From Glandiceps talaboti (lineage: Eukaryota > Hemichordata > Enteropneusta > Spengelidae): DNA of 64,000 nt. Below the pieces are notes generated by a model that saw only the letters and a list, made by a program, of their open reading frames with translations, searched no databases and was not told the DNA's origin. A program made the position numbers and the translations under genes. The stretch is taken from contig NC_135554.1 of the NCBI RefSeq assembly GCF_964340395.1, positions 10,971,475 to 11,035,474 on the forward strand. Reading direction: 5' to 3'. Shown here piece by piece: positions 29,654 through 64,000 of the stretch (position 1 is the first letter of the stretch; each line of letters starts with the position of its first letter).

Positions 29654-29720
29654 CTTTGCTTAACCTTAGTTTAACCAACAGTACAAACAGTATGAAGGAA
29701 ATCTTTATTACAAGTAACAT
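29654..29720 (-). pseudogene. Orphan signal-peptide exon of a third receptor copy
   Basis: On the minus strand it reads MLLVIKISFILFVLLVKLRL and SK plus one base, then the donor gtgagt. It is 67 bp and phase 1, like the first exon of the complete receptor at 53124-53190 ([20 protein letters not shown]). Flanks on both sides also match that locus. No matching receptor exons follow it; the next gene downstream is the fucosyltransferase-like gene on the other strand. It is best read as a relic of a lost tandem copy. Confidence 0.65.
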
Positions 29721-31761: not shown

Positions 31762-31952
31762 CTACTTTTCAACGAAGTCATAGTAGGTTTTGTCCTCATC
31801 CATGCAACCAGACTGTTCCACGTTTGCGTAGCATTTATCAACCTGAGAAGGGTTGCCAGTGTTATCCCTTTCTTTATTTTGCAGGCCTGTGTAGATATGT
31901 TGGTTTGTAACATCAGCCAATTCTGTATAGTTATCATCTGTTTCATCAGCAT
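31762..31952 (-). CDS. Receptor 1 last exon: cytoplasmic tail with ITAM
   Basis: Follows the acceptor catgaacag (phase 1). It reads [17 protein letters not shown] then HIYTGL, giving YxxL-x8-YxxL with Asp at -3 of the first Tyr. Further tyrosines lie in CYANV (pYxN, Grb2-SH2-like) and TYYDFVEK before TAG. The matching exon of gene 2 keeps both ITAM tyrosines. Confidence 0.8.
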
Positions 31953-32051
31953 CTGTTCATGAAAAAAATGTCAACGAATTAGTATTTTGAGAGGCCTAAG
32001 ATGTTACAAAAATGCTTTGTTTTGTATAAAAAATTGCCAAAACAACAACAG

Positions 32052-32118
<67 letters not shown>

Positions 32119-35100
32119 CACTACTACAACTACTTCCATGCATTCTGTGTTGCATCACACAAAGCGAGGTGAAGAGACGATAACATCAAGGCACAAAGAA
32201 CCCCAAGACGATAATTAGAAATATGCTTGGTATAGAGTTTTCTTACTTTTTCACTTCTTAGATTAATTGCCTTGTAGATTGATTTCCTTTCCTTGTAAAG
32301 TGATTTCATCCTTATAACGCATGGTGGTGAAACAACCAAATAACAAGTGTCCCAACCTTTGTAAAACTTTGTGACCATCACTCATTTTGAGAGACAATCC
32401 ATTAGTTCATCATTTTAATCTTTTAGTTCAATACTCAAACCATTGAAAAGTCGATGTTAACACACTGCCATTTATCATAAATTCATATGTCATATCAATT
32501 ATTCATATTGTTACCAGTAAGCTAGGTATCTGGCTACTGTAATAACAATACTTTAAATAATTTGCATAGGTTATGACGTTCGAGCATGCTAGCAGTACAA
32601 CGTTTTCTCAGCATTGAGCTTTGGAGCTGTCGTGGTCGACGATCTTAATTAATTCGGAAGTTCAATGCTAAAACACTTTGAACTGCTTGTGAATAACCTA
32701 TGTAAACCATTTGACCTACCAAGTTGATGAACGTTTTTGTTCCATACTTTAAGGTATTAGACCTCAGAAAATGGGAAACACTGTCATTCGAGATTCTTCC
32801 AATGATTTTAGAATAATATGTGAATCTGCAATTATAAACATTCCTAAGTAGAAAGATGGCGAAATATTGAATAAGAAAGAGGGTTACTTTTGTAATCAAA
32901 ACTCGGAATCATCATAATTAGTGTTGCTTACCCTTAGTTTTTCTATTTTGGTCTTGATTTTCTTTTCGCCTAAAATAGAAATATAACGGATATTGTTGTG
33001 TTGTTTAAAAATGTTTGAAAATTGGTAGACGATAACGCAACTCGTTAGGTATTTTGTCCATTGATATCATATTTCTCATCAAACAGCAATTATGCCCATT
33101 GTACATCAAAACACATCAAGGTAGCATAACACATAACGAGTTTATATAACAAAATAGAAAGTAATTCTAGAACTCAAACCAACTCTACGCGAAAAAGAAA
33201 AGACCCTTTCCAGAGTTGTCTTGATAGCGTTTTGAGACCATTTGACTGCCTGCACAGTATCCTTACTGGGTCGTGGCATGGTTGCGTGTTTGTCTTGACG
33301 TACCTTTCCACATTAAAAACAACATATCTTTCAATTGATGTGCAGATGAAGGAATTGATAAAGCCTACTTGGAAAACATATACACCTCAATGTTTAAATT
33401 TCGTAAATATCACTTGGGTAAGTTTAAAAGGGAACTTATGAAAAATATGTACTATCCTTTTAGTAAATTAGCTCTTGGTAGGGAGATTAATTCAAAACTA
33501 CGTACTTTTTGAAAATTAATAATATCGTAACTGTTGTAACAGCCGCTATGATTACAATTACCACAATCGTAACCGGAACAATAATCACAACTATATTGGA
33601 AGACTTCGAATCAACAGAACTCATGAGCAGTCCTGGAAGAAAAAGGGGTTTGAAAAACATAATAGCATGGAAAAGCACAAAACAAGCGTTGTTGCGTTAT
33701 TCGTTGGTGGGGAAGACATACATACATACATACATACATACATACATACATACATACATACATACATACAAATGAAAACTGGATCGTGTCAACAACTCAA
33801 AGGCCACACAATGGGTTTCTAAAAGTTCTCTGGAGCATTATTATGGTTATATCTAATAGTATATGTATACGCATCAAGTAGCTGGTAAGATGAGACATGC
33901 AAACACAGCACTGTGAATCAAATCACGATAACATTGTTTTAGAAATAACAGTCCAAAGATGTATTAAAGGCGATGGAAATCTGCAGGAAATATTAATTTC
34001 AAACGTAGGTTTAAGTCTCATCTCCTTACCTGTGATAATTGGTCCCATTAGAGGACTGGATGTAAAGAAAACCTACGGAAAGAGTAACAGTTTACACATA
34101 GCTAACAATCAGTTACCCGAACTAACTAATATAGCTTTGTTTTATTGACGCTTATAAGTAGACTAAGTGTATCCATCAGCTGTCTATATAAACCAGTATA
34201 CCCAAATCAACAGTTGTAATTTGGCAAACATATATAACAACCTTAAGACTCTGCATGCATTATCTTTACTCGTTACCTAAAACAATCTTCCATAAATGTA
34301 GTTGAAGACCAACCATCCTTTAACTCAAACGTATTTTAGTCCCCCGGACCCCCAGGGGGACTATTACAATGGGCTCCATCCGTCCGTCCGTCCATCCGAA
34401 ACACGTCATTACTCAGACATGCAATATCTGATTTCTTTCAAACGTAGTAGAAAGGTGACATGTCGCATGGAACAGATGCTACATTTTCGCTACATTTGCA
34501 GATTTGACCGAATGGCCTCGATGTTTGTACTTAAAAAATAATATGGCATAACTCAAAAATTGCAATACACATAGATTCTGTTCAAGTGTCTACCCCATTA
34601 CAAGGTACCCACTTTATTTAAGATATTGACCTCTGACTTTGACATTGACCATCGTGATCCATTAACAAAGTCCAGCAATTTCGTGCCACAGACTGTTTGT
34701 AGTATTTATTTGTTGTCAATATGTCTTAAGCTATGTCCACAGGCAATATAGGAGGAGACAAATATACATGTGGTTTATGTTTAGTAATTAGTGCTCATTT
34801 CATGTTTGAATGGTGGCCATATTTGGAGTAATAAACTAATATATAACTTCATAACCCAATACATAAAGTCCGTTCAAGTGTCTAACCCTATATAATCTCA
34901 TGCACGTTTTCTTGAAAGACAGTGACATTTGACATTGACCTTGTCCTTCTGGTCATTTATCAAAACAATGCTACTTTTTGCTTATTGCACAGTCTGTAGC
35001 ATTAAAATGGAGATTCAATTTAAGTGTCTATCACTATATCATTAGATGTACAATCTATGTTGAGATCTTGACCTTTGACCTTTACTTTCACCTCCAGAGT

Positions 35101-37605
35101 CAATTGTCAAAAGCCAGCGATTTCCTGTATTATCACAGATACAATTTAGTATTTATTTGTTACCTCATTGATTGAAACAACGGCGGGATGTACACAATTT
35201 GAACACATGAAGAAATCACTCACCGTAAACAAATTATCGAATTATCTTTTTTAATATGGCTTACCTCATTGTCGTTTTCAGGATTGTCCACATACACTCT
35301 GACAAAAACCACGTAATTAGCATTGGGGTCAAGTTCTCCATTGTGTGCCTCTGTTTCGTATACCTTTTTCGTTGTTGACCTTCTCGAATCGGTTCCTGCC
35401 TTGCATGATGATCGTTCACCATCTCCCAGCAGCACTTTAGCCCTGTAGTCGGTTCTTTGAGAGAAAGAAAAAAATGTTGAAGTTTGGTTCTTTAAGTGCC
35501 TAAACTCATTGTTGGTTTAACATGGAGAATGGGTATAATATTGAACTCACCCCAATAACTTGACGGCAGAGTATGGTGTACCAGCGTTGCCGAATGCTTC
35601 ATCATAGCTAGTTACTGCCTCCACTGGAAACAAAATATCAGGATTGGAATCTAATGGAAAGTCAGCGACTCTTGTGTTCACGTCCACCTCGACCTGGGCC
35701 ACTATGACGTCATAACACCTATTCTCAAAGAGAAAAGCCTTTATAAGACCCCCTGTAACATATTGTACAATGATTGTATAGTTATCATGTATAGACAAAT
35801 GATACTTGCAGGGGGAGGGGAAGGGTTTGGTAGAGTAGTTTTGAAGGTACACATATATCGTAAGAATGTCAAGTATTAGCTTTTGAAGTCGACAAGTATA
35901 AACCTACGGTATTTGTGAGTTTGGAAACAGAAAAGTGTATAGACGTTGGTAATGAAATTGTCTTTTAAAAATATTTAAAGGTGTACTAGCTGCAACTAGA
36001 CCATTTTGTTTGGAACTGCCTCATGGATAAAATGATTTCTTTTCATTACAGTACACAATTAGGTGTATTGAACCATCTATAGGTAAACTTGTGTGTATGG
36101 CCGTACACATATAACATTGCAAGAAACCTATTAAGTTTGAATTTTTCAGTATATCAGGAAAACTGTAGTTATCACATGACACGATGTGAAATAACACGTG
36201 ACAATTACTGTGACTGAAAGTGTATGTCATGACCTAGTACCTTGTGTTCTGATATTGAATATTCAATGAGGACTGCCATATATCGGTATCTCGGCAATTC
36301 AAACTAACATACTGGAGAATCTTTTGCTTAAAATATGTATTTGGTACGCGACAGCTTCTGGTATGCATATGTGGTTTAATTTGGTTCAACTCGTGAGCAA
36401 ATTAATTTTTTTCGTGGAAACCCTTTCAGGCCATCAGAATTTTCATGCTCCCCAATATTTTTTTCGTGGCCCTTCCCCACCTCCCGTTTTGTCTGCAGGA
36501 CCCCCTGTCATAAATTCTGACCGTTGCAGCGTTGTAAGCATTAATGGCTTCTCAGGTACGACACGAATGCTTACCTTACAGGCCCGTGTCTAGACGAAGC
36601 TTCAGACACTCTTATCCATATGGTGTTTGGCGAATCGACATCTTCATGAATTAATGACACTGGCGGTAAAGGGCGTGGTGGTGCTGACAACAGATTAACA
36701 AAACGACAATACTTTTCAATCAATGCTAGTCATCTAACGTAAATTATAGAGGTACACAACAAGAAAAAAACTACCCATTGTCTATTCGGCCTAACTCAAG
36801 CCAAGGGGACATTTGAGGATTTCGTCTGGATGGGGGTGGGGTGGGGGTGGGGTGGGGTATCCTGTTTTCAAAATTGACGGGGGAGGGGTTAGTCTGTTTT
36901 CACAATTTTGAATGGGGGGGGGGGTCATTGTGTATTGGATGGAAGAAAATACCATTTCCACAAAAGCATGTTCCGTCGGAAGAATGGTAAAATGGTAGAA
37001 GAATGGTCTTATCCCCATTTCTTATCTACATTCTTTAATATACTTCACTTAAAGTCAGATTTCAGTTTCTATTATACAGAGAATGATCATGAGCATTCGA
37101 AATTCTCTAACATATCAAAGTGACTTTACTATATCTGGCATAGTAATGCCACTATACCAATTAAAGTTACTGATACTACCACTGAGGGCTGTACTGCGAG
37201 ACCACACAGACTCGTCAGGGCGGTCTGGTAGTAGAGCCCCCAGCAATTAGAGTCTGGGTAAGCGAGACTAATGTGAGGTGAAAATAACAAGACAGCAGAT
37301 GCTACGTACCTGATGGGTTTGTAGAACATCCTATAACCTTTCTAGAGGGTACACTCCTTCCAGCATGACTGACAGCCGTCACTGTGAAATGATAATCAGA
37401 GTAACGCTTCAAAAGACTTTCTTCTTGCTTGTAACATTCCTTGACATCGACGTCCGTCTGAGCTACATGGAGCCATGTACCATTACCATCAATCACGTTA
37501 GTGTCACGTATGGATATTGAATACTCGATCTGTCATGAAAATAATATAGCATGAAGGTTAGCCAGATTTATCACAACAAACTATAGAAGGTTCTGGTACA
37601 TTAGG

Positions 37606-37647
<42 letters not shown>

Positions 37648-40600
37648 CTGTGCCTGTGTATGTATGTTGTTAGATGTAAGATGGTTGTCAACAGCAATGT
37701 TACAGATATATTCTGATATTACGGTACAATGATAGTAATGGTGGGATGTAAAGAAACTCGGGTGTAGTACCGGGGGGGGGGGGGGGGGGCTAAATCACAA
37801 AATAATGCAAAGTTTAATACAATATATGAAATTAAAATGTTACCCTCCAGTAATTTCATTCATAAAATATGTCCGTCTCCTTCAACAGATTTGTAAAATA
37901 CGACCCCCCCCCCCGTTTCGTGTGAGACCCCTGCAATGATTATTGAATGTTCGGTAATGAATTTCCTATATTGGTTTATATGTGATTGTGTACAGAATTA
38001 CTGGTCAAATCGAATATCTGATTAATCGGGTGAAAGCGTTCATAGAGAGACCTAAATGCACCCTTTAACCTAGAGTGTTGTATAACCAAGAGTAGTATAA
38101 ACTTATAAAACATAACCAATGAAACATCCACTTCAAGATTTGGAAAATGATACTCACTATGTAATAACGTATAATCCCATTGCCGTTTTCAGGTGCACGC
38201 CAACAGAGTTGACAAACTGACGTATCAGAGTATGATGTAATCATCGCCGTTAATTCCGACGGGGCAGAGGGAATATCTACGTCGCCTAAATGCAAAGAAC
38301 AATAAAATATGAACGAAATGAACACAGTCAAATGTTTTTACTTGAAATGGAAAATGTAAAATATCCGACATAAGCTTATAGAATTATTCTTTCCATTGAG
38401 GCTTTATTGAAACATATAGTATGTGTTTATTTCCGATACTTAATCATAGGGAATTTCTCATTACATTCCAAACAAAATAAAAAGATGAAGATTTTCGAGA
38501 ATGAGAAAAAAAAAGTGAAATAAACACACCTCCATTTCCATCGTTTTTATCCGTAGTCTGGTAAACAAGATGAGAGGGTTGACTTTCTTGGATATTTTCC
38601 TCTGAATGAACAGCTGTCACGAATATTTCATACTTTGTATTGGGCTGTAAACCATTTAATATGATGTCTCCCTCAAGACCTGACGCTGGGAGAGATAGAC
38701 AAGTAAATTAAAATAGGCAGGGTAAAAGTGATCCATCCATCAACCTGGTATTCCAATTTTCCAGCTGTTTAGTCTTACCGGGTAAATGTCGTTTATTGAT
38801 TTGTATATACATTTTTTACATGTAATTTACTGAATGTCTTGAAAAATTAAACTCAACCAGCTTACCACACAACCAACCAACCAACCAACCAGCCAACTAA
38901 CAAGCCAGCCAACCAACCAACCAACCAACCAACCAACCAACCAACCAACCAACTAAACGGCCAGTCAACCAACCAAGTAGTCTAGCTGCTAGTGACCTCG
39001 GCCTTCGAGGGCGAACGCAATACTACCAACCAAGTTAAACAAACCAAACCACCAGCCAGCAAGCCTGTCAGCCTGTCAGCCAGCAAGCCAGCCAGCCAAC
39101 CAACCAACCAACCAACCAACCAACCAACCACATTTGAAATGTTTGTTACATGTTACTTACTTTGTTCAGATTGTAATACATCCCCTTCATAAATGGAATA
39201 GTACACAATATAGTAATGAATTAAGGCATTTTGGGCAGCTGGAGTCCACATCACTTTAATCTGTGTAGATGACCATGACACGGCAGTGACACCATATGGT
39301 GGACTTGGCTCTGGTAAGGCTTCACCTAGAACAGAGTTACGTTTGTGTCATTTATAGTAAACATGTGATTGAACAGTACGATCCTCAGTAAGACTCGATA
39401 AAAAAATAGATCGCCAACAGAACAAAAAAGTAAACCCTTGATAACATAAAACAGTTATAGAACATGACATATGAAGAGAAGAGAAAAGAAATAAATATAC
39501 AATTGATTGTTAAATAGTTTAAACCAGTCAATGTACTAAACAATTATATGGCGAATATATTTGGACACTTATTTATACTTAATTATGCATGCATTTCTAT
39601 GAATATTTATCAAATATAAGTCTTCAAGAAAGACGCTTGTTATGAGCTTTCAAAATTATAGTTTTGCATGTATATATTTAAAAAGTATTTCCAATATTCA
39701 TATTATGATATTGTATGGCCATTTCTACAATTATCCGTACTTCATTGTATTCAATGAACGAATTATCGAACGCATGCATGAACTCACGAACAGATAAACA
39801 CAAGAATATATGCTAAAATGATAACTTGAATAGTTTGAGTTTAGGGATGATGCCACATATAGTTAACATGTTTCAAATATTTGAAGATTGAAATGACTCA
39901 CCCTCTGTGTTCGTCTTGACCCAATCACTTTCCGTATAATCGCTATATCCTTCCTCGTTGGCACAGCGTATTCGCATCTGATACATTGTATCCGGGTTTA
40001 GTTGGTTTATTGTATGGACGTAGTGGGAACCTGGTCCATTCACACGGTCATAGAACATCCAGGTAGCAAAGTCTGAATTCCGGTACTCGATGTTGCAGTG
40101 TGTGACCTCAAGGTTACCAGTAAAGGTGAGTCTCCAACTTAATGATATTTGCTGCGTTTCAGTAGGGCTGGTTGCAAGAATAATGACAGGGTCCGGTCTC
40201 TCTGCATTGATTCAGAAGAAAAAACAAGATATTCATCATTACAAAGAAATGTTATGTTTTACCTGCAAACTATGTACAATAAACACGGATGGATGGAAGA
40301 ATGGATGGATGGGTGGGTGGGTGGATAAATGGATGGATACATGAATGGATGAATGGATGGATGGATGGATGGATGGATGGAAGAATAGATGGATGGAAGA
40401 ATGGATGGATGGATGGAAGAATGGATGGATGGATAGATCGAGGAATTATTGAATTTGACAGTAACACACCCCCACACACAATTACTGAATTCGAAAGTAA
40501 TATTGTCTTACCGTATACAACTAGGTCGATATATATCAAGTAGTCGCTGGTGTATCCATTTGTTATACTGCAGTAATAAGTACCATTAACATAGCGATCA

Positions 40601-43600
40601 CTATTCAGTATAACTAATTCCGAATTAAGAGTGTGTATATGATTTCCTTCCAAGCTTGATTCAGTTATTCGAAACGTTGCATCATCGGTCGTTATCACAG
40701 TGTCATTCGGGGTAAACCACTGTATCGTCGGTATTGGATTCCCCGTTGCACCACACTCAAAGGTAGCAGTTTCACCAAAGGAAACGTAGGTAGTTTCTGG
40801 GAAAACATCTACCGTTACATTTACTGCAATTGACAGATTAAGATGTTTTAAAATTTGTACACATTGATTTACCTGTCAGAAATTCAAGAGCTACAAAAAT
40901 TATTGGTCTATGTTGTTTCATGTTATTTTTATTCTGATACAAAAACATAGTAAATTAGATTTTTATAAATAAAAAATCCAAATAAATATATATATACATT
41001 TCCCATCGATATTGTCACTTTAACAAATGTGATAAATGTGCATTTTACCAACCTGGTAATAAGACACAAACAACCCCCAGACCTTCACCACAAGATCTAT
41101 CATGCCAACGGCCAGCATCTGACAGATACATAGCTACACAGTTCTCATCTCGGCCTCCGCTAGGTTGGTTGTATTTCCATTTGAAGTAATCAGTCTGTTG
41201 AGATTCACCATCGGTGTATATACCTTCATCATCAATGTCGTTGAGATCGATCCAAAAACCATCAAAACCACTGAAATGATACAATTATTAAGATAAATAG
41301 ACTGTTATATGGATACCGTATGACATACCAACTTATCATAAAATATTGTATTGCATCGACTGTGTTATATATCATCTGCTGCAGCATTGTATCTTTGCTT
41401 AGAATATACATTTAAGAACTCTGTTTTATTGTTTGCTAACCGTCTAATGGTCTTATTTTGTATTTCATTGTATTGTTCATCTGATTCATATGGTGTTGCT
41501 TGAACTTGCATTCTGTTGTCTTATTTATGTTTTCCTTTTCAACATTAATATATCAGATTTATGTACATTATATTGTTACACAAAAGCCACTGGGGTTGAG
41601 AGAGAACGTAGTCTGTCCGTGTATCTTCTTTTCATTGGATTCCTGGTAACAGGTCCTTTCCCAGCTTCCCTAAACAATTGGCATTGCTTCTCATCTAAAA
41701 CCCATCCCCTACTTGAATAACTTCCGTCATGAAAGAAATGCGCTGTGTGTTCACTCCTTCGTGAACAAGCGTCGCCATTGCCATTTATACTGTAGATGAC
41801 ATCACCAGAAACTTGCCTATTGTTGCAAAATATTAAGGCGGGTGAAAAAAAAAATTAACTAGTTTTGATGTCGGAAATGAAAATGTGGGTCGGTCTACTA
41901 ATAAGAAAAAGGGAAAAAAATAAGGTCACCTTAATGCACATTATGAGACAAGCTCACATAGTCTGACTAGACAGCTTTCCTCAGATAACATGGGTTTACA
42001 GTGTATAGCAGACACTTTTAATGTGTCACCAAGATAAAACTTCCAATATATTTAGCAAATTGCTATCTGAGCAGTATCCACTTATTGACAACAGAAAATA
42101 CTTCGCTCATAGCGGAGTGTACACGCTTACATACTATACATGTGTGCAAAACTTCAACTTCAAAAGTACTGGAATGAATTGCTTATGGATCTTAAATATG
42201 AATGTTGTCATTGATTAAAGGTTAGTCTTGTACTAAAAGACATTTGATCAGATTAGTGTAGAAACTTGAATCGTATTAATATGTACAGCATGACCTTAAA
42301 TGTTAAGGTCAAGATCAAGGGGCATTGCCAAACTTCAGTGTTGACATAGGTGCAGATGATAGAATAGTGTCTCCAGATGCAAAATCTTAAAATTGCCAAT
42401 TGACCTTTAAAAGAAAGTGAAGGACAAAGGTCTGTGTTCGGCTTGAAAACTTACTTTTAATTTTTAAACATAACATATAATTACTTTGATGTGTCTCTGA
42501 GTGTAAAATTTCCAGTCGCTATGCCAATTCTGGCTGGACCTTGAAGGTCGATATCACGGCAAAGATGGATGTCTCAAAGAAGAATTAGAACAGTCGATAT
42601 GGGCGTGGACACTTTAATGGGGTATCCGGGTATTTATGTTATTGATTCCTGGTCAAAAGTGTTAAGATTCTTACAAATATGCCATCTGTTCGGCCATACT
42701 GATCAAGGTTGTTTAGTACAGTAATATGCATATGTCTCCTATAGGGTCTGACATTTGAACCAGGTTAAATTGAAATTGAACCATGCGTGGCAGGGATAGG
42801 GTTGTGCACAGATGGACGGACTAAAGCAAAAAGACACAGACAGACGGACGGATTGATGTATGTGTGCCTTTCCCATAGTCCTACCTTGGCATATATAATG
42901 CTGCAAGTCCAACCAAAGCCATATTATCTTTTCGATCGCGTATTGTTGGCAAGGTGCCGTTGATGCTGGAACAAAGTTCTTTTGCATCATGCCATGGCCT
43001 GAATTCTTGGAACATAAACGAGTAGCACATAGCTTTATCATTTCTCAGCTTAGTTTCGTCATTAGAGTACCAAGGACAACCTGCAAAACAAAGCAAAGAT
43101 AACGGAAATATACACAATTTACTCATATATGTGTAAAGGCATAGTCTAAGATTCAACGTTAATCTGTGCAGTTTGTGTCTTAAATGAGGTCATTAGTTAG
43201 CGATCTACTAACGATCATTAGTTAGTTCACAACATCATATATAGCAATGTAAACTCATACCATGAGCTGAAGATAGCCATCTTCATTATAAGAGAAAAGA
43301 TACATAAAGTATACTTAGTACAATATATTGACGTATGAGACAAGATCAGTCTGAATAGACAGCTTTTATTTTAAAATATGGGTGTAGACACATCAAGTGA
43401 GCATATATAATACAGCGATTCTAAATTTTAAACTGTCTTGTTTATTTACTAAATTGCTATTTGATTCTTAAGATAGCTAATCCAAATCAAAATCGAGGTT
43501 CTCAAAGTTTGAATGCATACACTTGAATTGTGTCTATTTGCTCAAACCTTGACCTTGTAGGTAAAGGTGGTCAAAAGTCAGTGTCACAATAGAAAGCTTG

Positions 43601-43993
43601 CCCCTGACAAAATGTGGTTATAGACACTTGACTGGTTTATCTTTTTACAACAGTTCTGTAGTTATTGAGTAAATGTCGATTTTACATTCAGTGTGAAGGT
43701 CAAGGCTAAAGGTCAGTGTCTGACATGAAAGCTTACTTATATAAATTAGGTGCAGATGTTAACATTGGCTCAATACAAAACATTTGAACTTACAGACGGA
43801 ATTGCTATTTGACATTGGAGATGAAAGTCAAGATCATATGTCGCTTTACCTGGCTTGAAAACTCACTTCTGTATATCGTGTATATATGTGACTCGTGTTC
43901 TCTATGTACCGGGTACAACATTTGTAAAGTTATATAGCAGATAGGTCTTTGACCTTGAAGATCATAAAGGTCACTTGAGCGAGAGAGAGAGAG

Positions 43994-44058
<65 letters not shown>

Positions 44059-47000
44059 CTTTATTGTCCACAGTGTATATATGGAAAATCGCTTTCAGTC
44101 ACTCAGGTCAAAGATTGACATACAATAATCAAAGAACATAAATAACAACAAGACAGGCTAAAATTACGGAGACAATGCTGATCAACAGCTAGTTAAAATG
44201 GGAATTGGATGATATAACAGCTATAAAGACGACATAAACGTTAAGTTAAAGTTCCCTGGAATTTAAAATTGAAATTGCTGATGGAATAAAAGAACGTTTA
44301 TAAAAATTCCTGCGTGCTTTTGGTACGCGAAATCTGCGACCAGAGGGGAGTTTTTCAAAGTATTGATTAAGGGGATGTGTCTTGTCTTTAAGTATCCCAC
44401 GTGTTATCCTCTTGGTGGAATTATGGTATAATTCTGACAATTGAATTTGCTGAGTTCCTATGAGTTTGGATGCTGTATTAATAACACGGCTGAGTTTATT
44501 TCTACTTGTCATGGTCAGATTTCCATACCATGTGGCAATATTAAAGCTCAGCACACTTTCTATTAAGCTTCTATAAACCCTTTCAAGTATACATTGACTA
44601 ACATTGAAACTTTTCAGCTTCCTGAGCAGAAACAATCGCTGTTGTGATTTTTTGTAAATCAAGTCTGTATTTTCCTTGAAACACAGCTTGTTGTCAATGT
44701 CAGTACCAAGATATTTAAAGAAACTCACTATCTCAACCACTTCGTTGTCAAAGGTGATTGCATCTGGCATTTCTCTCCCCTGTCTTTTATCGCACACTAA
44801 TTCTTTCGTTTTTCCGACATTGAGCTTGAGAAAACTTTGTTTGAACCAAGCACTAAGCCGCTCAATCTGAACATAATACTGTGATAGGGTGAACTCATCT
44901 TTAAGACAACCCACAAGAGCCATGTCGTCTGCATATTTAACCAAACTTAATATTGAATTTTTGCATGACATTTCGTTTGTATAGATGGAAAACAAAACTG
45001 GCGAAAGAACACAACCCTGGGGTACCCCTGTATTTAGGATGATCTCCTCTGATAAAATACCTCCCTCTACATTGACACGCTGTGGCCGGTCATGTAAAAA
45101 CTCCTTCACCCAGAGTACAATGTTATGACTAGTATTCATATCTAGTAGTCGCTGTAACAACAAATGTGGTTGGATAGTATTAAAAGCTGATGAAAAATCC
45201 ATAAAAAGAACTCGTACATACGAACCAGCATTGTCTAAATGGCTTGTTATCAAATTAAACAGTGTCAAAGTTGCATCCTCACCCCCCCCCCCTACCAGAC
45301 CTGTAGGCAAACTGTAGTGGATCTAAGTGACTGGCAACAGATCCAATCAATTGGTTACATACCAGTCGTTCCAAACTCTTTGCAATGATTGATGTCAGTG
45401 CCACGGGGCGAAAATCATTCAGAGCATTAGCTCTAGGTTTTTTGGGGACTGGAATAATGATAGAGGTTCTCCATGAGCGAGGTATGTAGTTAAGGCTAAA
45501 CAGAAATTTAAATAGTTGCGTGAATGTTGGAGCAAGCTGTGTAGCACACAGTTTCAGTACCCTACCCCCGACTCCATCAGGTCCTGGAGCTTTGTGTGGG
45601 TTAAGTCGAAGAAAACACTTGGTTACATCATGTTGATTAACTTCAATTGACGATGGCGTAAGACGCTCACATAGCTGTTCACATTCTCTGTTAAAGTCTG
45701 TAACATCAAAACGTGCGTAGAACTGGTTGAGATCGTTGGCAAACTTGACTGGGTCATCCGATAATGTACGTTGTTGTTTTTCCTTTCTTCCCATCATAGT
45801 GTTCAAACCTTGCCAAGCGTCCCTGGCGTTTCCATTACTTATTTTCTCCTCGACTTTGTTTTTGAATCCGATTTTGGCCAGTTTAGCGTTACTGTGAAAC
45901 TCTCTGTTCATCTGTTTTACTTTATTTGTGTCATGTTGTAAAAATGCAGATTTCTTCTCATTTAAGCACATTTTGAGATCCTTTGTTACCCAAGGTTTGT
46001 TGTTAGGATAGACACGCACTTCTTTCGATGTTATAATATTGTTCTCACAAAACTGAATGTACGAAGTCAGAGTATCGGTCAGCTCTTCCCCATCCGTACA
46101 ACTGTCAAAGAAAACTTGCCAATCGGTGATTTCAAAGCATCCCCTCAACGCCTCAATGTTATCATTGGTCCACTGTCTAACTTGTTTTATTACAGGTTTA
46201 GCTGATTTTAGTTTCTGTCTGTACTGTGGAAGCAGATGAATCACGTTATGGTCTGATCTGCCAAGTGGAGGACGACTTTTGGCAACAAATACCCGAGGAA
46301 TGTTACCATAGCACATGTCCAATGTTCTGTTAAGACGTGTTGGACAGGTGACGTACTGATGCAAATTAGGAAGAAGATTGGTAATGTCGCACCTGTTGAA
46401 GTCGCCACATATAAATACCGGTTGGTCCACTGACCTGCATAATGCTTTGTTATAGATTTCTGCGATCTTTTTCGCCGCTTGCGTGTTGTCCGGTCCGGGT
46501 ACATATACCAATATCACAGTTACCTGCCCAAATTCACGTGGTAAATAATGCGGTCTAAAAGAAACAGTTAAGATCTCGTAATGTTTCGTACTGACCATTT
46601 CTCGTACACAAAAGTTGGTCGCCCATTCTTCATTCACAAACATACACAAACCTCCACCAATATTTTTTGTTGTTTTTAGTTTATCTCTGTCAAAACGTAT
46701 TGTATTATAGCCCTGTAGATTAACGTCTACTATTTCCTCTGTCAACCAGGTTTCTGTAAAACAGAAAAGACTTGTTCTTCTATAGTCTCCGTCATACCTG
46801 GATAGTGTTGTAAGTTCGTCCATTTTGTTGGTTAGAGAGCGAAGGTTTGACAGTGTAATAGCTGGGAGAGGGAGTCTACTTCCACGTTTCTTAATTCTTT
46901 TCCTGATACCTCCTCTTGATCCCCGTTTTTTTCTTTCCTTCTTCGAATTGGCTTTGGTGTATTGGGTCCAGTCAATATCAATAGAGGGTGCAGGTACATC

Positions 47001-47271
47001 GCAGTTTCTAAAACTCAAAAGGTACTCACGGCTGAGAGTGACAACCGGCCCGCCATGATGATTCTCAGTTAGTGTAGTCGCAGCACCAGAAGACGTGAAT
47101 AAAGAGTCCGTTATCAGACACAGAGTCACTAAAATGACATACCACTTCGACGACATTGTTATATACAATATTTGATACAAAATACTTCACATCAACAGTA
47201 ACTGTTTACGTTTTACGATAAAAATGACCAGAGCGAGTGACCAGGGGTCTGCACTACGAGTTGCGCCCCCT

Positions 47272-47310
<39 letters not shown>

Positions 47311-47323
47311 GAGAGATAGAGAT

Positions 47324-47355
<32 letters not shown>

Positions 47356-49061
47356 ATGGACAGACAGACAGACAGAGAGTAGAAAGACCTAGCCCATTTT
47401 TTGTATCTTATGTATGGCAGTGAAACTCTACGTATTGCATACACCAAGTTCAACACATATACAAATTCGATTTTATCAAGACTACAGGACTTGCAATGAC
47501 ATAAAGTAAAGAAAGACAATTTTCGATTGATCAAACAATTTTTAAACTAAAGGATAAATGTCAAAACCAACCTCCTAACTTGGAACCGTAAATGTAACTT
47601 GAAACTTTATTCAGTACTTCTCGGTTCAGTTCATGTCCGGTTCCCTGTCTTTCGCGACAACTCGCATCCCATGTCAAAGATCTGTCACACCACCAGTCAT
47701 CCCAGGTTTCTCTAGACCTCTCCCATGCACAACGTTGTGACGACGATGACGGAAGACCATAGCGTCCAAGCAAATTTTCGTCCAATGGCGTTCCATCAAA
47801 CCATGTCCATTCATTATTCATGTAGACTAAACCAATATCACCCCTATCACCTGGAGGAAGGAAGAAGAATACCTGGAAGGAGTGAGTTGCAATTTGCGAA
47901 ACGTATTCCTGGTTTTGCAGCATGATATGTATATGAATAAATGTATACATCAATTTGTAAGCAAAACATCAATAATGCCAATAGGCAATCTGACTCTTTT
48001 GGTAGCCATAGTAACGACTACATCAGATTTAATAAGTGGGATCTGGGATTTTTAAATTCTTCCTATTTCCTTTCAAATTTTTTGAGTGTTGCATCGTATC
48101 TTTGTATCAAATTAAGTCCGCAAATAAAGTCTGTGTGTGTGTTTTCGTTTGGACACTATATGGATATCTCATTTGATAAATTTGTTCTTCATTCTCACCA
48201 CTTGACCCCGCAACTTGTTCTCTGCTATCATAAATTGTGATAAAGGCATTATTGTCCAGACATATATCCAATGCTTCAAGCCAAGTATTGCCACTGTTAG
48301 TTCTACTAAAGCTTCGGAAACATCCACCATGATTCCAGTTCCAGTCGGAGTGCACACAACCTTTTATTGTAAAGAACATAACACGACTATTAAGATAACA
48401 GCAATGCTTATTAATTAATTGATGGATTTATAGGCTAAAACAAGTAATGATTATCTTTTTACCACTTTTTATGTCATAACATAGGCATCCTCCATTCTCA
48501 ACTACTCATACCTCCTACCAGGTAAGTATGCTCACACACAGAACAATTTTAGGATGATTTAATGTATACAATTGGAAGAAGGCATTTTGGTATTTTGTGT
48601 CCATTTTAAATTGGTGTCTCTGTCTACATCCATCCATCCATCCATCCATCCATCCACCCATTATATCCATTCTTTATAATACATACATACATACATACAT
48701 ACATACATACATACATACCTTGTATACACGTTGGCACTGGCTTGTTCCAAATACTCCCGTTACATTGTGTCATTGCTGATCCATTCATACTATACGAGTT
48801 GTCACAATCATACGTTATAATAGCGCCATCTATGTACTGATTTTGGTTTATAATTCCCACCTCGGTTGCTCTATATCCATTTATTGGATTTCCAGGATCC
48901 AAGCAAGTTTCTATGTTCCAGGTAGAATTGATATACGTGTACTATGAGTAATGCATCAATGTGTAATTCGTAAATAACAAAATCATGTTCAAATTAAAAG
49001 AGTAACCTCTGATATCGTGATATACCGAGTAACAAATTTCATTGAAACACAATTGAGTTGT

Positions 49062-49149
<88 letters not shown>

Positions 49150-52100
49150 CTTAGTCCGTAGCCACAGTACAGATGATTATGCTCATTACGATTATCACTT
49201 CTCATTTATTAAATTTGCACGTCCTCAATTAATAAGTACGTACGATAGCATTGGTTATAAAAACAAATTAAAGCCTGAATATTGATGTTGTCATAAATGT
49301 TTTGGGATTTAAAACGTGATGAGCATATTGCGTGTCGGTTATATCCCTGTGATGCTTTTTGTACAACTTTATTGTTAACCCAATGATATGTATACCAGTA
49401 CTGAGTTATTAGTAGCGTTATCACTGGCGTATTGATATACTAGTATTAGAAGTTACATGTGCTTGTCCGAACTATGGCGGACTGTAATAAAGTTGAAGTG
49501 TTTAGTTCTAAGACGAAACCTCTCCGTGTTTTGCGTAAACCGTGTACTTTGGTGCAAAAGTATCACAATCCCCAATGGCAATGCTCATTACAACAAGTAT
49601 GCCGTTTGGTCATGTTTATATTCAATACCTACATGCATACACCTAATATGACTTCCAAATAAAGTACTTTGAACTATTGTTCCGTGTTATGTATAATGGA
49701 TGAACCTCAGTGTATGAAATAAAGACATAGGTAGTCATTCACTTATTATTTTTATCGTGATATTTGCATACAGGACCAAATCGTGATTATGATTTAAAAG
49801 ATATTACGCAATTGTGCAAGATTTTGCAATCACGCGAGATTTCTATTTAGTCTTATTATTCGCAAATCTATTACTGTAAATCAATCGACTCATCGAAACC
49901 AAAAGTCTACCAGTCTACTTCCTATACATGTCACGTATCAGGGTTATCGGTGGCCGAGTGGTTAAACCACCGGTGGAAATGAGTGAAAATGAAAAACGGA
50001 GACATTTTTTTCAAAAAACCAAAACTCTTTTGAAAACTGTCCACCTTACCCTTAACATTGTAAAGACTTAGACGATATAAAACTAATTGTGTGTTTCCGA
50101 TAATATGGCATCAGAGAATAGGGTAGGTATAGGCCGGGACTCTTTTTTATTTTACCTTTTTTAAAAATTGTTTTTATTTTTGAAAAAATATTACTTCGAC
50201 AAACTAAATGTCTATCAGAATACCGGTACCCCTTCAGTGATAGTTTGATGAAATATATACGGTAGCTTAAAACTAAGGTCGATCGGAAACACATTTTTTT
50301 CTTTTGCCTTATTAATTATTCCGTTAAAAATAGTACTTTTAATATTTGACATACACGTATTTAATAAAATCACTAGCAAAAACACTAACACTTTCCAATA
50401 AACTTGACAATCATTTCTTATTCGAATTAAAGTAAAATAACTACATTTGATATTCGTATCAGTTTTGTAGTGTAATAAAGACATTCACTGACAACATCAA
50501 GTGTTTACATGCTTGATATTGTGTACAACTATGTATATGCAATTTGTACGCAGGGATATTATAGAGTCCTGCATGTAGACGGTGTTAGTCTGACTAGTAC
50601 TCGATTCTGACAATGTCCCTTATACAAAGTCATGCGACAAGATCTGATCCTGGCAAGCCACTGCTGTGTTGGGGAGCCAATAACAAAAAAGAACCATCAG
50701 ACTATCTACTTATATCTCACCTGTTTGACGCCAAAAGTTCCTACTCGGATGACCAATAATCTTGAAATCAGAACTTTTCATATTTAAAAAAAGTACCCAC
50801 AGCAGGAAAGGAACTTCTCAATGGAGCCGATTTAAGCCGTTTGCAAGCAGGAGTAGGGTGACATCATATCCACTACAACTATTAAATATTCAGACAGTGT
50901 TCCCACTTATAGTTTGCGTATGAAATAAGGATGAGACGTTTGTAATTCAAAGTGCTTGTTGAATGGTCGCCACAAGATCGCAGCGCCCTAATGTCCTAGT
51001 GTTGAAGAAGCAGGAGGAAACCAGAGTACCCGGGGAAAACGTGCGTTGTTCGGCAGAGTCAAACACCCTTCTTACATACAGACCTGGTTAAATTTTTAAG
51101 TGTACATGCAAAGGTTGATAATTTTTTTCATTATTATGTTTATTTTGCTATAAAAATAAATGAAATTGCATTCATATACCTCTAAATATTATGCGCAATG
51201 GAAAGAAAGTCGCAAAAATACTTGCCCCCTTAATCCCCTGTGCTTCGACTAACTTCGGCGCCTCAGCCAGCTCACGAAAGGTGTCGAGGTCCCACGTGTT
51301 ACAAAAGCCTTCTTTAGAAGCCTTTGTGTAATGTTTACTTATGAATTACTAATTACGCTTGCCATAGAGTATTATCTGTAACTGTACATATTGTTGTGTA
51401 CCAGTGTTTTGTCGGCAGCACCCGCAGTGAAACGATCACCCTACACACATTTCCGAGTGATATAACTGAGTAGGTAACGGGTGAAGGCAGTTGAAACCAC
51501 GCGTAAAAACTGGACAGTGACGCCATACATGTATAGTGAAAGCCGGTAAATGTTACCGGGGCAGGGGTTCTCCACGCCACCAGTGTAGCCATGATCCAAG
51601 CGAAAAAAGGAAAACATAAAATAATTTGAAATGATGTTTCACGAATCAAGAAAGCAAGTTAGCTTCATAAAATATTTTCAGTACGATAGCAATTTTTTTG
51701 AAAACAATGCATAGTCCGATTGTATGTTTTGATTTCCATGTTGCTGAGAGTCGGTCGTTTTCATTGCGATACATCGCACGTACATACTGCATTGTCGCAA
51801 TCTTATCAAAGTAAAAAAGACGCAATGCTAATTATAATGTTGCTATTTTTGTTTCCATTGTTTTGTCTACCTGCAACGTAAGACATGTCTACCGATCAAA
51901 AACTCAAACAAAACAAAATGGTCGGAGACAATACGCCACAGTACATACACCACAGTACGACACCGGCTTCAGTGAACACGGGCCGTGCTTTGAAAGAAGA
52001 TGAAACCACTTCATGTCACTGTGTGGATGGTAATGAACGCAGTAAAAAATGAAATAAAGTGCGTGTACTCATAGGGATAGCTATCCAACAAAACGTTCTG

Positions 52101-53190
52101 CTCTAACGAATTTGTGGGTCTACTTTCGCGAAGATTTTGAATAGTCATAGAATGTACTATTACGAGACATGCTACATCTAAACAACTTGAGAGAATATTA
52201 TGGGGAACTCATTGTGTTGTGTTGTCTTCTCGTGAAACTATTCTCATCCGATCTCTGTATGATCGATGGGTACAGAAATATTAGATAGTTTTCGTTTCGA
52301 TTAGATTGTCTGCAGGAGCTGTTTTCCACCCATTGAACATTTATGTCAACAAAGGACTCTGACAACAGCCTTCACTTTATGTAAACAATACGGCTTCACT
52401 AGGACGTAAACAATACGCTGGATGGTCCATGTTGCGGTACAAGACAGCAAGGCATAGTCAGAAAACAAACACTAAACTTGCATGATGGATATTTAAACAC
52501 AGGTATACTATTACACATAATGGTACTAGCCATGACTATATTTTTCTGTGAAATTCACATCGAAAAAAAACCTTATAAAGCAGTGTCATTCAGTCTATGT
52601 GGTTGCGGACCACCAACTTCCTCACTCATTCACTGCCAGAGGAACTATCGTTACTGCTAGCGGTCGGTTCCAATGAATATGGCTAAATCACACCATCAGA
52701 TGTTAATGCTGGAGTGTATTGCTCTACGCTTGAGGCATCTGACGAATATTCAACGTCGTGTTCTGGTGAAAACCGGTTGTGAAGTTGACCTACCCCACGC
52801 TGTCCTATCCATATGCAAATGAGAGGTACTTACCTGAAGCATGGATGTATTAGTGATACATCCATGCCTGAAGTTGCACTGTAGCTGAGCCGAGAGTGCC
52901 TCATTTTTCGCACAATTTCTCGTTTTAGAATTATATTGTCCTATTACAAACCCGATTTCCTTTATTTTTATGGCAAAATAAACTTAATTACGAAAAAAAA
53001 TTATCAACCTTAGTTGCATGTACACTTTAAATCAAACCCAGCCGACACGTGGTGGGTTCGAACCCAGGCGGCAGAGGTAAGAGGCGTACGAGCTAACTGC
53101 TAAACCAAAACATATATACTCACCTTCGCTTAACCTTAGTTTAGCCAACAGTACACACAGTGTGATTGAAGCCCTTATTACCAGTACCAT
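31762..53190 (-). CDS. Multidomain type I receptor with ITAM tail, 18 exons, 1061 aa
   Basis: Exons, 5' to 3' on the minus strand: 53190-53124, 48910-48719, 48360-48199, 47850-47572, 43080-42885, 41270-41053, 40823-40512, 40201-39902, 39325-39161, 38685-38530, 38285-38158, 37529-37310, 35752-35551, 35454-35265, 34072-34030, 33632-33506, 32969-32932, 31952-31762. Every junction is in phase; the sum is 3186 bp. Layout: signal peptide 1-22, CCP 23-86, two C-type lectin domains 87-371, Ig 372-475, three FN3 476-798, membrane-proximal domain 799-943, membrane helix about 955-980, tail 986-1061. The tail has Tyr1007 and Tyr1019 in YTEL-x8-YTGL, an ITAM match, plus YANV and YDFV. No kinase or phosphatase domain is present. 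Ligand unknown; a recognition or adhesion receptor signalling through SH2 proteins is inferred. Most module borders are phase 1, which favours exon shuffling. Confidence 0.75.
32051..32117. repeat. (CTA)n microsatellite
   Basis: About 22 units, in the last intron of receptor gene 1. Confidence 0.95.
32932..32969 (-). CDS. Receptor 1 micro-exon, juxtamembrane basic linker
   Basis: A 38-bp exon between acceptor ctattttag and donor gtaagc. It converts phase 2 to phase 1 and encodes [12 protein letters not shown]. It is needed to join membrane exon and tail in frame; gene 2 has an equivalent at 58860-58888. Confidence 0.65.
33506..33632 (-). CDS. Receptor 1 transmembrane exon
   Basis: Follows the acceptor tttcttccag and reads [12 protein letters not shown], then a helix of Ile/Val/Thr/Ala (about 26 residues) with no charged residue, ending IFKK at the donor gtacgt (phase 2). 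Confidence 0.75.
33715..33770. repeat. (CATA)n microsatellite
   Basis: About 14 units, in a receptor 1 intron. Confidence 0.95.
34030..34072 (-). CDS. Receptor 1 small exon closing the membrane-proximal domain
   Basis: A 43-bp exon between acceptor ctttccgtag and donor gtaagg, phase 0 in and 1 out, encoding [14 protein letters not shown]. Only such an exon reconciles the phases of its neighbours, and the text fits the last strand of the membrane-proximal domain. Confidence 0.6.
35265..35454 (-). CDS. Receptor 1 membrane-proximal domain, exon 2
   Basis: Encodes [16 protein letters not shown] through [18 protein letters not shown] and ends NDNE at gtaagc (phase 0). The pattern LGDG...NG.L.P...Y.VF.R resembles the membrane-proximal region of type IIB receptor tyrosine phosphatases, a weak structural analogy only. 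Confidence 0.7.
35551..35752 (-). CDS. Receptor 1 membrane-proximal domain, exon 1
   Basis: Follows the acceptor atgttacag and reads [20 protein letters not shown], then VADFPLD and [11 protein letters not shown], ending phase 2 at gtgagt. Confidence 0.7.
36828..36920 (+). other. G-rich tract with quadruplex potential
   Basis: Several runs of four or more G separated by one to few bases (ggtgggg repeats), in an intron of receptor 1. G-rich on the + strand, so C-rich in the receptor transcript. Confidence 0.5.
37310..37529 (-). CDS. Receptor 1 FN3 domain 3, second exon
   Basis: Follows the acceptor catgacag (phase 0) and reads [11 protein letters not shown], then [20 protein letters not shown], the FN3 F-G strand signature. 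Ends TNPSG at gtacgt (phase 1). Confidence 0.8.
37604..37647. repeat. (GT)n microsatellite
   Basis: About 22 units, in a receptor 1 intron. Confidence 0.9.
38158..38285 (-). CDS. Receptor 1 FN3 domain 3, first exon
   Basis: Reads [17 protein letters not shown], then [20 protein letters not shown] at gtgagt (phase 0). The core Trp and Tyr of FN3 are present, with two extra cysteines next to the Trp. Confidence 0.8.
38530..38685 (-). CDS. Receptor 1 FN3 domain 2, second exon
   Basis: Phase 1-1 exon encoding [20 protein letters not shown], then [10 protein letters not shown], the L.P.T.Y...V.A FN3 signature. Confidence 0.8.
38872..38955. repeat. (CCAA)n microsatellite
   Basis: CCAA run, with a related run at 39086-39131; both lie in the intron splitting FN3 domain 2. 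Confidence 0.9.
39161..39325 (-). CDS. Receptor 1 FN3 domain 2, first exon
   Basis: Phase 1-1 exon encoding [20 protein letters not shown], then IKVMWTPA and HYYIVYYS; the FN3 A-C strands with core Trp. Confidence 0.8.
39902..40201 (-). CDS. Receptor 1 FN3 domain 1 (single exon)
   Basis: A 300-bp phase 1-1 exon. It reads [54 protein letters not shown]. Core Trp, Leu and Tyr are in place. Confidence 0.85.
40279..40442. repeat. (ATGG)n microsatellite, degenerate
   Basis: A long GATG/GAAT run in the intron between the FN3 and Ig exons of receptor 1. The long frames read across it on both strands are artefacts. Confidence 0.9.
40512..40823 (-). CDS. Receptor 1 Ig domain (single exon)
   Basis: A 312-bp phase 1-1 exon. 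It has the Ig pattern [15 protein letters not shown] and GTYYCSI (Cys, Trp, Y.C) and ends LVVYG at gtaaga. Confidence 0.85.
41053..41270 (-). CDS. Receptor 1 C-type lectin domain 2, second exon
   Basis: Follows the acceptor catttcag (phase 2). Reads [56 protein letters not shown]. The cysteines fit the fold. QPS stands where sugar-binding lectins have QPD or EPN, so calcium-dependent sugar binding is doubtful. Confidence 0.85.
41576..41816 (-). other. Unassigned open segment inside the lectin-2 intron
   Basis: After a tag acceptor, 80 codons stay open in phase 2: [18 protein letters not shown], then [20 protein letters not shown] and [12 protein letters not shown], to TAA. The phase matches lectin-2 exon 1. 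No clear phase-2 donor leads on to lectin-2 exon 2. It could be a terminal cassette exon, a decayed gene fragment or chance. I do not recognise it. Confidence 0.3.
42885..43080 (-). CDS. Receptor 1 C-type lectin domain 2, first exon
   Basis: Follows the acceptor gttttgcag (phase 1). Reads [39 protein letters not shown] and ends ALYMP plus two bases at gtagga (phase 2), which joins exactly to the exon at 41270. Confidence 0.8.
44246..45310 (-). CDS. LINE polyprotein, C-terminal part (reverse transcriptase)
   Basis: Contains RT motif A ([14 protein letters not shown]), motif B ([20 protein letters not shown]) and the catalytic [10 protein letters not shown], then a thumb region, to the stop near 44246. 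It is in a different frame from the upstream part; the shift lies in an 11-C run at 45282-45292. Only that shift separates it from a continuous reading frame. Confidence 0.85.
   Translation of the reverse strand: MPTGLVGGGGEDATLTLFNLITSHLDNAGSYVRVLFMDFSSAFNTIQPHLLLQRLLDMNTSHNIVLWVKEFLHDRPQRVNVEGGILSEEIILNTGVPQGCVLSPVLFSIYTNEMSCKNSILSLVKYADDMALVGCLKDEFTLSQYYVQIERLSAWFKQSFLKLNVGKTKELVCDKRQGREMPDAITFDNEVVEIVSFFKYLGTDIDNKLCFKENTDLIYKKSQQRLFLLRKLKSFNVSQCILERVYRSLIESVLSFNIATWYGNLTMTSRNKLSRVINTASKLIGTQQIQLSELYHNSTKRITRGILKDKTHPLNQYFEKLPSGRRFRVPKARRNFYKRSFIPSAISILNSREL
45279..47156 (-). CDS. LINE polyprotein, N-terminal part (endonuclease and start of RT)
   Basis: From ATG 47156 ([17 protein letters not shown]) through a Lys/Arg-rich segment ([12 protein letters not shown]), the endonuclease, a linker with [12 protein letters not shown], and the RT beginning at [13 protein letters not shown] and DFRPVALTS. 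It runs into the poly-C frameshift after [10 protein letters not shown]. The hydrophobic start is signal-peptide-like, which is unusual. No separate ORF1 is seen upstream. Confidence 0.8.
   Translation of the reverse strand: MSSKWYVILVTLCLITDSLFTSSGAATTLTENHHGGPVVTLSREYLLSFRNCDVPAPSIDIDWTQYTKANSKKERKKRGSRGGIRKRIKKRGSRLPLPAITLSNLRSLTNKMDELTTLSRYDGDYRRTSLFCFTETWLTEEIVDVNLQGYNTIRFDRDKLKTTKNIGGGLCMFVNEEWATNFCVREMVSTKHYEILTVSFRPHYLPREFGQVTVILVYVPGPDNTQAAKKIAEIYNKALCRSVDQPVFICGDFNRCDITNLLPNLHQYVTCPTRLNRTLDMCYGNIPRVFVAKSRPPLGRSDHNVIHLLPQYRQKLKSAKPVIKQVRQWTNDNIEALRGCFEITDWQVFFDSCTDGEELTDTLTSYIQFCENNIITSKEVRVYPNNKPWVTKDLKMCLNEKKSAFLQHDTNKVKQMNREFHSNAKLAKIGFKNKVEEKISNGNARDAWQGLNTMMGRKEKQQRTLSDDPVKFANDLNQFYARFDVTDFNRECEQLCERLTPSSIEVNQHDVTKCFLRLNPHKAPGPDGVGGRVLKLCATQLAPTFTQLFKFLFSLNYIPRSWRTSIIIPVPKKPRANALNDFRPVALTSIIAKSLERLVCNQLIGSVASHLDPLQFAYRSGRGGG
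47275..47375. repeat. (GA)n and (CAGA)n microsatellites
   Basis: GA-rich then CAGA-rich runs directly abutting the 5' end of the LINE. Confidence 0.9.
47572..47850 (-). CDS. Receptor 1 C-type lectin domain 1, second exon
   Basis: With acceptor cttcctccag (phase 1) it reads [47 protein letters not shown] and runs on about 25 residues to the donor gttggt. DIGL replaces the usual WIGL, and no EPN or QPD motif is present. A second possible acceptor 20 bp upstream would break the frame. Confidence 0.75.
48199..48360 (-). CDS. Receptor 1 C-type lectin domain 1, first exon
   Basis: Follows the acceptor acaataaaag (phase 1). Reads [47 protein letters not shown] and ends phase 1 at gtgaga. This is the N-terminal half of a C-type lectin fold with its three cysteines. 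Confidence 0.75.
48679..48718. repeat. (ATAC)n microsatellite forming the CCP splice donor
   Basis: On the minus strand the CCP exon ends exactly where a (GTAT)n run begins, so the donor gtatgt is the first repeat unit. An ATCC run lies just beyond, at 48629-48659. Confidence 0.85.
48719..48910 (-). CDS. Receptor 1 CCP/sushi domain (single exon)
   Basis: A 192-bp phase 1-1 exon. It has the four-cysteine CCP pattern [28 protein letters not shown] and VPTCIQ. Acceptor ggaacatag; donor gtatgt. Confidence 0.85.
49066..49147. repeat. (TA)n microsatellite
   Basis: About 41 TA units, in intron 1 of receptor gene 1. Confidence 0.95.
49940..49970 (+). mobile_element. SINE head fragment
   Basis: gggttatcggtggccgagtg and gttaaaccac match the 5' end of the SINE at 13528; the rest is missing. 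Confidence 0.6.
50520..50940. repeat. Paralogous segment shared with 28890-29600
   Basis: Blocks such as gatcctggcaagccactgct, aaccatcagactatctactt and cggatgaccaataatc recur in the same order near 28970-29090. This is the intron-1 part of the receptor duplication, with later insertions in each copy. Confidence 0.7.
50965..51098 (-). mobile_element. SINE body fragment, antisense
   Basis: The reverse complement carries gttttccccgggtactc and tttcctcctgc, as in the SINE at 13528. The tRNA head is missing. Confidence 0.6.
53041..53107 (-). mobile_element. tRNA-like SINE head, antisense
   Basis: On the minus strand ttagcagttagctcgtacg and gggttcgaaccc give A- and B-box-like blocks. It lies about 17 bp inside intron 1 from the donor of the receptor 1 signal exon and is absent from the paralogous exon at 29654. 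Confidence 0.5.
53124..53190 (-). CDS. Receptor 1 exon 1: signal peptide
   Basis: Starts at ATG 53190 and reads [22 protein letters not shown] plus one base, then gtgagt (phase 1). The phase matches the CCP exon. Assignment to this gene rests on position, phase and paralogy, since the first intron is about 4.2 kb. Confidence 0.65.

Positions 53191-58425: not shown

Positions 58426-64000
<5,575 letters not shown>

Follow-up and report, generated by a model that had tools for sequence, protein, structure and literature searches.

The 64,000-nucleotide stretch analysed here (the window; C7:10971475-11035474 in a genome assembly of 590 Mb) carries on its minus strand a receptor gene, gene A, with an exact ITAM in its own cytoplasmic tail, and a second gene with the same type of tail. 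From comparison of these genes with their surroundings, we lean towards the view that gene A belongs to a cluster of ITAM-tailed single-pass receptors of a presumably non-vertebrate animal and that neighbouring receptor tyrosine phosphatases (RPTPs) with related ectodomains would form an activating/inhibitory set with them. The preliminary description of this DNA dealt with gene A alone; its account of the gene A tail stands, but it missed the second tail copy in the same window as well as the tie to receptor phosphatases, which lie outside it.

Gene A reads as an in-frame chain of 19 exons from an ATG at 53190 to a stop at 31762, with a product of 1086 amino acids; all internal exons are flanked by AG on the 5' side and GT on the 3' side, with consistent intron phases. 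The chaining of the in-phase model described previously is retained, with 19 exons counted here instead of 18. The protein is laid out as a signal peptide, a CCP domain, two C-type lectin domains, an Ig domain, three FN3 domains, a unit termed P4, a transmembrane (TM) segment and a 76-residue tail, and Pfam matches past the cut-offs comprise Sushi (2.2e-6), Lectin_C (3e-17, two stretches), Ig_3 (1.3e-10) and fn3 (1.3e-26, three stretches). Most of the domains are divided between exons, and disorder is to be expected in the tail. The features of gene A are as follows.

53124..53190, minus strand: exon 1, ATG and signal peptide; hydrophobic start
48719..48910, minus strand: CCP/Sushi exon; Pfam Sushi 2.2e-6
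48199..48360, minus strand: lectin domain 1, first half; Pfam Lectin_C
47572..47850, minus strand: lectin domain 1, second half; donor uncertain
42885..43080, minus strand: lectin domain 2, first half; Pfam Lectin_C
41053..41270, minus strand: lectin domain 2, second half; QPS against QPD of the aligned MRC2 domain
40512..40823, minus strand: Ig domain in a single exon; Pfam Ig_3 1.3e-10
39902..40201, minus strand: FN3 domain 1 in a single exon; exon chain and Pfam
39161..39325, minus strand: FN3 domain 2, first half; exon chain and Pfam
38530..38685, minus strand: FN3 domain 2, second half; exon chain and Pfam
38158..38285, minus strand: FN3 domain 3, first half; exon chain and Pfam
37310..37529, minus strand: FN3 domain 3, second half; exon chain and Pfam
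36575..36683, minus strand: P4 exon a; exon chain, without Pfam or PDB match
35551..35718, minus strand: P4 exon b; exon chain, relatives in other genes
35265..35454, minus strand: P4 exon c (P4c); genome matches to the P4c query
34030..34072, minus strand: juxtamembrane exon; exon chain
33506..33632, minus strand: transmembrane exon; Kyte-Doolittle 3.49
32932..32969, minus strand: short basic cytoplasmic exon; exon chain
31762..31952, minus strand: tail exon with stop; open frame and exon chain
31882..31929, minus strand: ITAM stretch in the tail; motif reading
31819..31830, minus strand: YANV (pYxN type); motif reading

The weak link of this chain is exon 47850-47572, which completes lectin domain 1; its donor was chosen among four candidates, and a chain that skips the exon also keeps the frame. 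Canonical sugar-binding C-type lectins carry EPN or QPD together with a WND calcium/sugar motif. Neither EPN nor QPD was seen in lectin domain 1, the best PDB match of which is NKG2-D, and lectin domain 2 has QPS, in place of the QPD of the aligned MRC2 domain, along with WHD, its best PDB match being macrophage mannose receptor 1. P4, a two-cysteine membrane-proximal unit encoded ahead of the TM segment by exons 36683-35265, matched nothing in Pfam, nor anything in PDB at E up to 10. The intron after lectin domain 1 houses a retroposon-like element (47186-44249, minus strand; class assigned by eye), with endonuclease/reverse-transcriptase-like ORFs in two large overlapping frames.

The ITAM consensus is D/E-x(2)-Y-x-x-L/I-x(6-8)-Y-x-x-L/I, and one 64-residue open frame of gene A holds YTEL at 31929, YTGL at 31893 and YANV at 31830, with Asp at -3 of the first box and eight residues between the two YxxL boxes. 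Both the YTEL-x8-YTGL string with its acidic -3 residue and the pYxN-type YANV behind it are thus present in gene A's own tail exactly as first reported. On its own the pattern turns up readily in AT-rich DNA translated in six frames: once hits with fewer than seven different residues had been dropped, 19 remained in the window, and tails A and B account for two of the 19. Among shuffled tails (200,000 shuffles each) the pattern arises at a frequency of 0.0007 for A and 0.0011 for B, and a PDB search with tail A returned nothing at E up to 10. An inhibitory reading of the tails was rejected for A, B and D (genes D and E are introduced below), none of which matches the ITIM pattern [SIVL]-x-Y-x-x-[LVI]; tail E has two loose ITIM matches, its second box among them. 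A PTP domain downstream of gene A was likewise rejected: a stop directly follows the tail, as it does in B, D and E, A and B can be aligned in their 3' regions, and no PTP match (PF00102) falls in the window among the matches listed.

The second gene of the window, gene B, runs on the minus strand from 64000, where it is cut by the window end, to 58426, and encodes a CCP, an Ig and one FN3 domain, a TM segment, a short basic exon and an ITAM tail; its first exon was not found. The gene B ectodomain differs from that of gene A, the tail type is common to both, and the exon phases around the TM segment match. The features of gene B, together with the repeat arrays 3' of both genes and a copy of exon 1, are listed below.

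63901..64000, minus strand: gene B CCP exon; cut at the window end, remainder read beyond the window
63296..63589, minus strand: gene B Ig exon; Pfam Ig_3 5.3e-7
60700..60855, minus strand: gene B FN3, first half; Pfam fn3 5.4e-11
60226..60375, minus strand: gene B FN3, second half; exon chain and Pfam
59234..59336, minus strand: gene B transmembrane exon; Kyte-Doolittle 4.19
58860..58888, minus strand: gene B short basic cytoplasmic exon; exon chain
58426..58610, minus strand: gene B tail exon; ITAM at 58587-58540
57729..58313, minus strand: repeat array 3' of gene B; matches the array 3' of gene A
31060..31657, minus strand: repeat array 3' of gene A; matches the array 3' of gene B
29654..29720, minus strand: copy of exon 1 lying 3' of gene A; encodes a signal peptide and shares the donor

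Tails A and B are identical at 39 of 61 residues (dS 0.46, dN 0.235), with 19 of 22 identical in the ITAM core against 20 of 39 outside it (Fisher p 0.011, the core limits having been set after viewing the alignment). Over the 22 core codons dN is 0.06 and dS 0.37, and over the last 36 codons the values are 0.315 and 0.513. Outside the tail, silent sites of the two genes give a dS of 2.6 in FN3 and are saturated in Ig as well as in the TM and short basic exons, yet at DNA level a likeness of some 75% runs through the tail exon, a portion of the intron before it and the array of repeats 3' of the gene. Either the tail cassette is therefore of more recent origin than the ectodomains, or homogenisation has taken place; and since the likeness of about 75% extends into intron and 3' repeats, conservation between the A and B tails reflects selection only in part, the remainder being the result of young copying.

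Several further observations concern the window and its flanks. The exon-1 copy at 29720 may open another unit or be a relic. Gene B contains a half-Ig exon ending in a stop (62440-62567), probably a broken domain, which adjoins about 1.2 kb of imperfect repeats (61150-62414), and between genes B and A lies a short minus-strand frame (56521-56430) with YFDL-x11-YTLI, a spacing of 11, for which no exon support was seen. A 3.1 kb stretch is directly duplicated (1249-4340 and 5304-8415) at 90% identity, and part of it recurs at 8620-9213; two palindromes, at 4344-4590 and 23975-24593, give inverted self-matches of 94% and 77% and are perhaps short inverted-repeat elements; and long transposase-like ORFs, recognised by eye, lie downstream of the window at C7 10954.8-10958.1 kb.

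Counts from searches of the whole assembly are lower bounds. With tail A as query at least four tails were recovered (4 matches, 4 candidates), A, B, D and E, all on the minus strand of C7 and inside 97 kb. Tail D lies at C7 11099296 (E 1e-9) and tail E at C7 11060010 (E 1.4), the weak match of the latter being backed by its own P4, juxtamembrane (JM), TM and short basic exons with phases 0-1-2-1, as in gene A; searching with tail E (3 matches) or with tail D (4 matches) revealed no further copy. In A, B and E the tail follows the TM and short basic exons with phases 2 and 1. The string D-xx-YTEL-x8-YxGL is kept in 4/4 tails found in the genome, and loss of the two tyrosines in homologues, which the preliminary description had named as a refuting case, is not seen within this genome, where all four tails retain both. 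Of the 52 gap-free alignment columns 16 do not vary, among them the -3 Asp, YTEL, the Y, G and L of the second box, the tyrosine of the YxN site and the last tyrosine; at a rate of 16/52, invariance of all four Y/L anchor columns would arise by chance with a probability of 0.007. The conserved tyrosines could also belong to a general phosphotyrosine scaffold, with YxN and YDxI/V taken up by Grb2, PI3K or Src SH2 domains and no tandem-SH2 signalling implied, as a C-terminal Y-D-x-I/V-E-K in 4/4 tails and YxN in 3/4 (E is without it) would suit; we consider this quite improbable, as conservation between A and B peaks in the ITAM core and not in the C-terminal half.

The preliminary description had suggested Syk/Src-type signalling. 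On the minus strand of C12, from about 9239.5 to 9222.5 kb, a locus picked from at least 54 SH2 matches plus tyrosine-kinase matches of the genome shows SH2, ankyrin, SH2 and tyrosine-kinase pieces in order, and Pfam assigns its seven pieces to SH2, Ank, Ank, SH2 and three times PK_Tyr_Ser-Thr. This SH2-ankyrin-SH2-tyrosine kinase order is that of SHARK, and the presence of such exons in order in the genome supports the Syk/Src-type suggestion. Fly Shark, with Src42A, is reported to act with the ITAM of Draper (PMC4503800). Separately, SH2, SH2 and PTP matches lie in order on the minus strand of C23, at about 3393-3375 kb, which suggests a candidate SHP/Corkscrew-type phosphatase.

The AP-2 type uptake motif is YxxPhi. 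YTEL and YTGL both fit it, so that the YxxL boxes might be uptake signals of an endocytic or adhesion receptor for which no kinase is needed, and lectin and CCP ectodomains, with macrophage mannose receptor 1 as the best PDB match of lectin domain 2, would suit such a role. Uptake, however, does not need a fixed eight-residue spacing, an invariant -3 Asp, Thr-Glu or two further invariant tyrosines, all of which recur in 4/4 tails, and SHARK-type kinase exons exist in the genome; we judge an uptake function unlikely, if worth keeping in mind.

The surroundings of the ITAM genes, mapped over 304 kb around the window with local profiles of genes A, B and X, are rich in related receptors. Gene D occupies the minus strand at about C7 11137-11099 kb and encodes CCPs, EGF, Ig, Ig, FN3s, P4 and an ITAM tail; no TM or short basic cytoplasmic exon was found between its JM exon and the tail, where a (TA)n run lies instead. 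Gene X (C7 11053.9-11043.3 kb) resembles D at 93.5% along 4.3 kb, its 3' end not being readable. Adjacent to D and head to head with it, gene R1 extends on the plus strand over about C7 11160-11214 kb, with CCPs, EGF, Ig, Ig, FN3s, P4 and TM followed by PTP matches; its JM and TM exons have the phases of the ITAM genes, and its first PTP carries WPDFGVP and, with VHC joined over an intron to SAGVGRTG, an intact active-site motif. A genome query with P4c gave at least five matches, in genes E, D, A and R1 and at R2, a plus-strand P4c locus at C7 11233529 upstream of a PTP group at 11239783. R1 thus resembles the ITAM genes in its CCP-EGF-Ig-FN3-P4-TM order and in its splice phases through TM, and R2 in having P4c upstream of PTP, the difference being that PTP domains stand where the ITAM genes have a short tail with two YxxL boxes. 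Judged by the same domain types and the same exon phases through TM (A, E and R1), the ITAM genes are related to the adjacent RPTP family. Similar CCP exon runs in gene E and R1 (C7 11068-11094 and 11160-11179 kb) may contribute variation to the repertoire.

C7 is rich in PTP matches, with at least 101 positions in 20 groups (12 kb limit) among the matches listed, which suggests a large receptor-phosphatase expansion; PTP-dense stretches among these matches lie at 7.40-7.92, 10.28-10.72, 11.20-11.25, 12.25 and 15.47 Mb. The position of the ITAM genes among RPTPs would also be expected if they were degenerate receptor phosphatases that lost their PTP exons and whose leftover short tail drifted to an ITAM look, and both the TM missing from view in D and the half-Ig exon with a stop in gene B could be taken as marks of decay. 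Yet the tail frames are open in 4/4 genes, dN/dS in the ITAM core is low and the TM-region phases are the same in A, B and E, which makes such an origin very unlikely in our estimation. In the parts that were read, genes A, B and E seem intact, D having the tail and no visible TM.

Only one pair of genes, D and R1, combines near-identical ectodomains with an activating-type and an inhibitory-type gene. Their DNA shares two blocks of 1.1-1.2 kb at 93% identity (one over Ig1, the other from Ig2 to FN1, both with their introns) that flank a block at 89%, the identity falling to 87-91% around EGF and the last CCPs and to 75-83% further 3'. Ten ectodomain exons are 79-96% identical in amino acids, with dS of 0.06-0.19, whereas P4 exons b and c are 41% and 44% identical, with dS of 1.83 and saturated, respectively; as P4b and P4c are so far diverged, the shared tract ends before the membrane-proximal part. 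Within this pair D may be broken or misassembled, given the (TA)n run in place of a visible TM. Gene A is without a demonstrated phosphatase partner, since its lectin exon has no close twin, the best other match (40%) lying on C6, with no PTP among the matches listed there.

In the activating/inhibitory set that we favour, the CCP/lectin/Ig/FN3 ectodomain would bind a foreign, altered-self or allogeneic surface, and receptor clustering would allow a Src-type kinase to phosphorylate both YTEL and YTGL. With a distance of 12 residues between them, the resulting phosphotyrosines could then dock both SH2 domains of the SHARK-type kinase, with the YxN site possibly adding a Grb2-type branch. The signal would be erased by the RPTPs next to these genes, whose related ectodomains would bind ligands of a similar kind. 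A more specific proposal, which we advance tentatively and with some doubt, is that these are invertebrate paired receptors in which the activating member would be an ITAM receptor and the inhibitory member a receptor tyrosine phosphatase, their ligand-binding parts being kept matched by gene conversion between neighbours.

In the lymphocytes of vertebrates, ITAM signalling and receptor phosphatases work against one another. If our reading is true, the two would be coupled in one animal through shared ectodomains, which would amount to a novel means of constructing an on/off receptor pair; the locus would then be a candidate for the recognition of self/non-self or of microbes in an invertebrate. 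No ITAM/receptor-phosphatase pairing was found in the open-access literature searched. A profile of the two tails gave 110 pattern matches in viral and 55 in prokaryote contigs, 0 confirmed in either, a result that says nothing on rarity in animals.

The preliminary description supposed that gene A is not of a standard family. Its architecture is indeed new, but the receptor is less unusual than was thought, as published reports describe ITAM, hemITAM or ITIM motifs in oyster CgIgIT2 (PMC11999971), an ascidian haemocyte protein (PMC5465252), and Hydractinia allorecognition candidates and Botryllus FcoRs (PMC12065747); with such invertebrate motifs already published, gene A alone offers a new architecture only, in a known kind of ITAM receptor. 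Oyster CgIgIT2 is likewise a single-pass invertebrate receptor with its own classic ITAM, with reported microbe recognition and ERK signalling, but has five Ig domains, and the accessible part of that report mentions no CCP, lectin, FN3 or phosphatase partner (PMC11999971). The Botryllus fester co-receptors resemble the present cluster as a linked multigene family with sushi and Ig domains, YxxI/L/V tail motifs, and activating and inhibitory types; they differ in having an ITIM, hemITAM or single core motif and not a full ITAM, and a fused PTP, lectin or FN3 goes without mention in the available text (PMC12065747). Drosophila Draper-I is reported to provide an invertebrate ITAM on which a Src kinase and Shark act, and Draper-I (ITAM) and Draper-II (ITIM, recruiting Corkscrew) exert an on/off control like that of the proposed set; Draper, by contrast, is CED-1-type, and control in the off direction comes from a phosphatase-recruiting splice variant, where the proposed set would use a receptor phosphatase encoded by its own gene (PMC4503800). 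Similar ectodomains with opposite tails, as proposed for D and R1, are also described for the vertebrate paired receptors CEACAM1/CEACAM3 and Siglec-11/-16, with gene conversion reported for Siglec-11/-16; inhibitory CEACAM1 differs from R1 in acting through ITIM/ITSM motifs where R1 has PTP domains.
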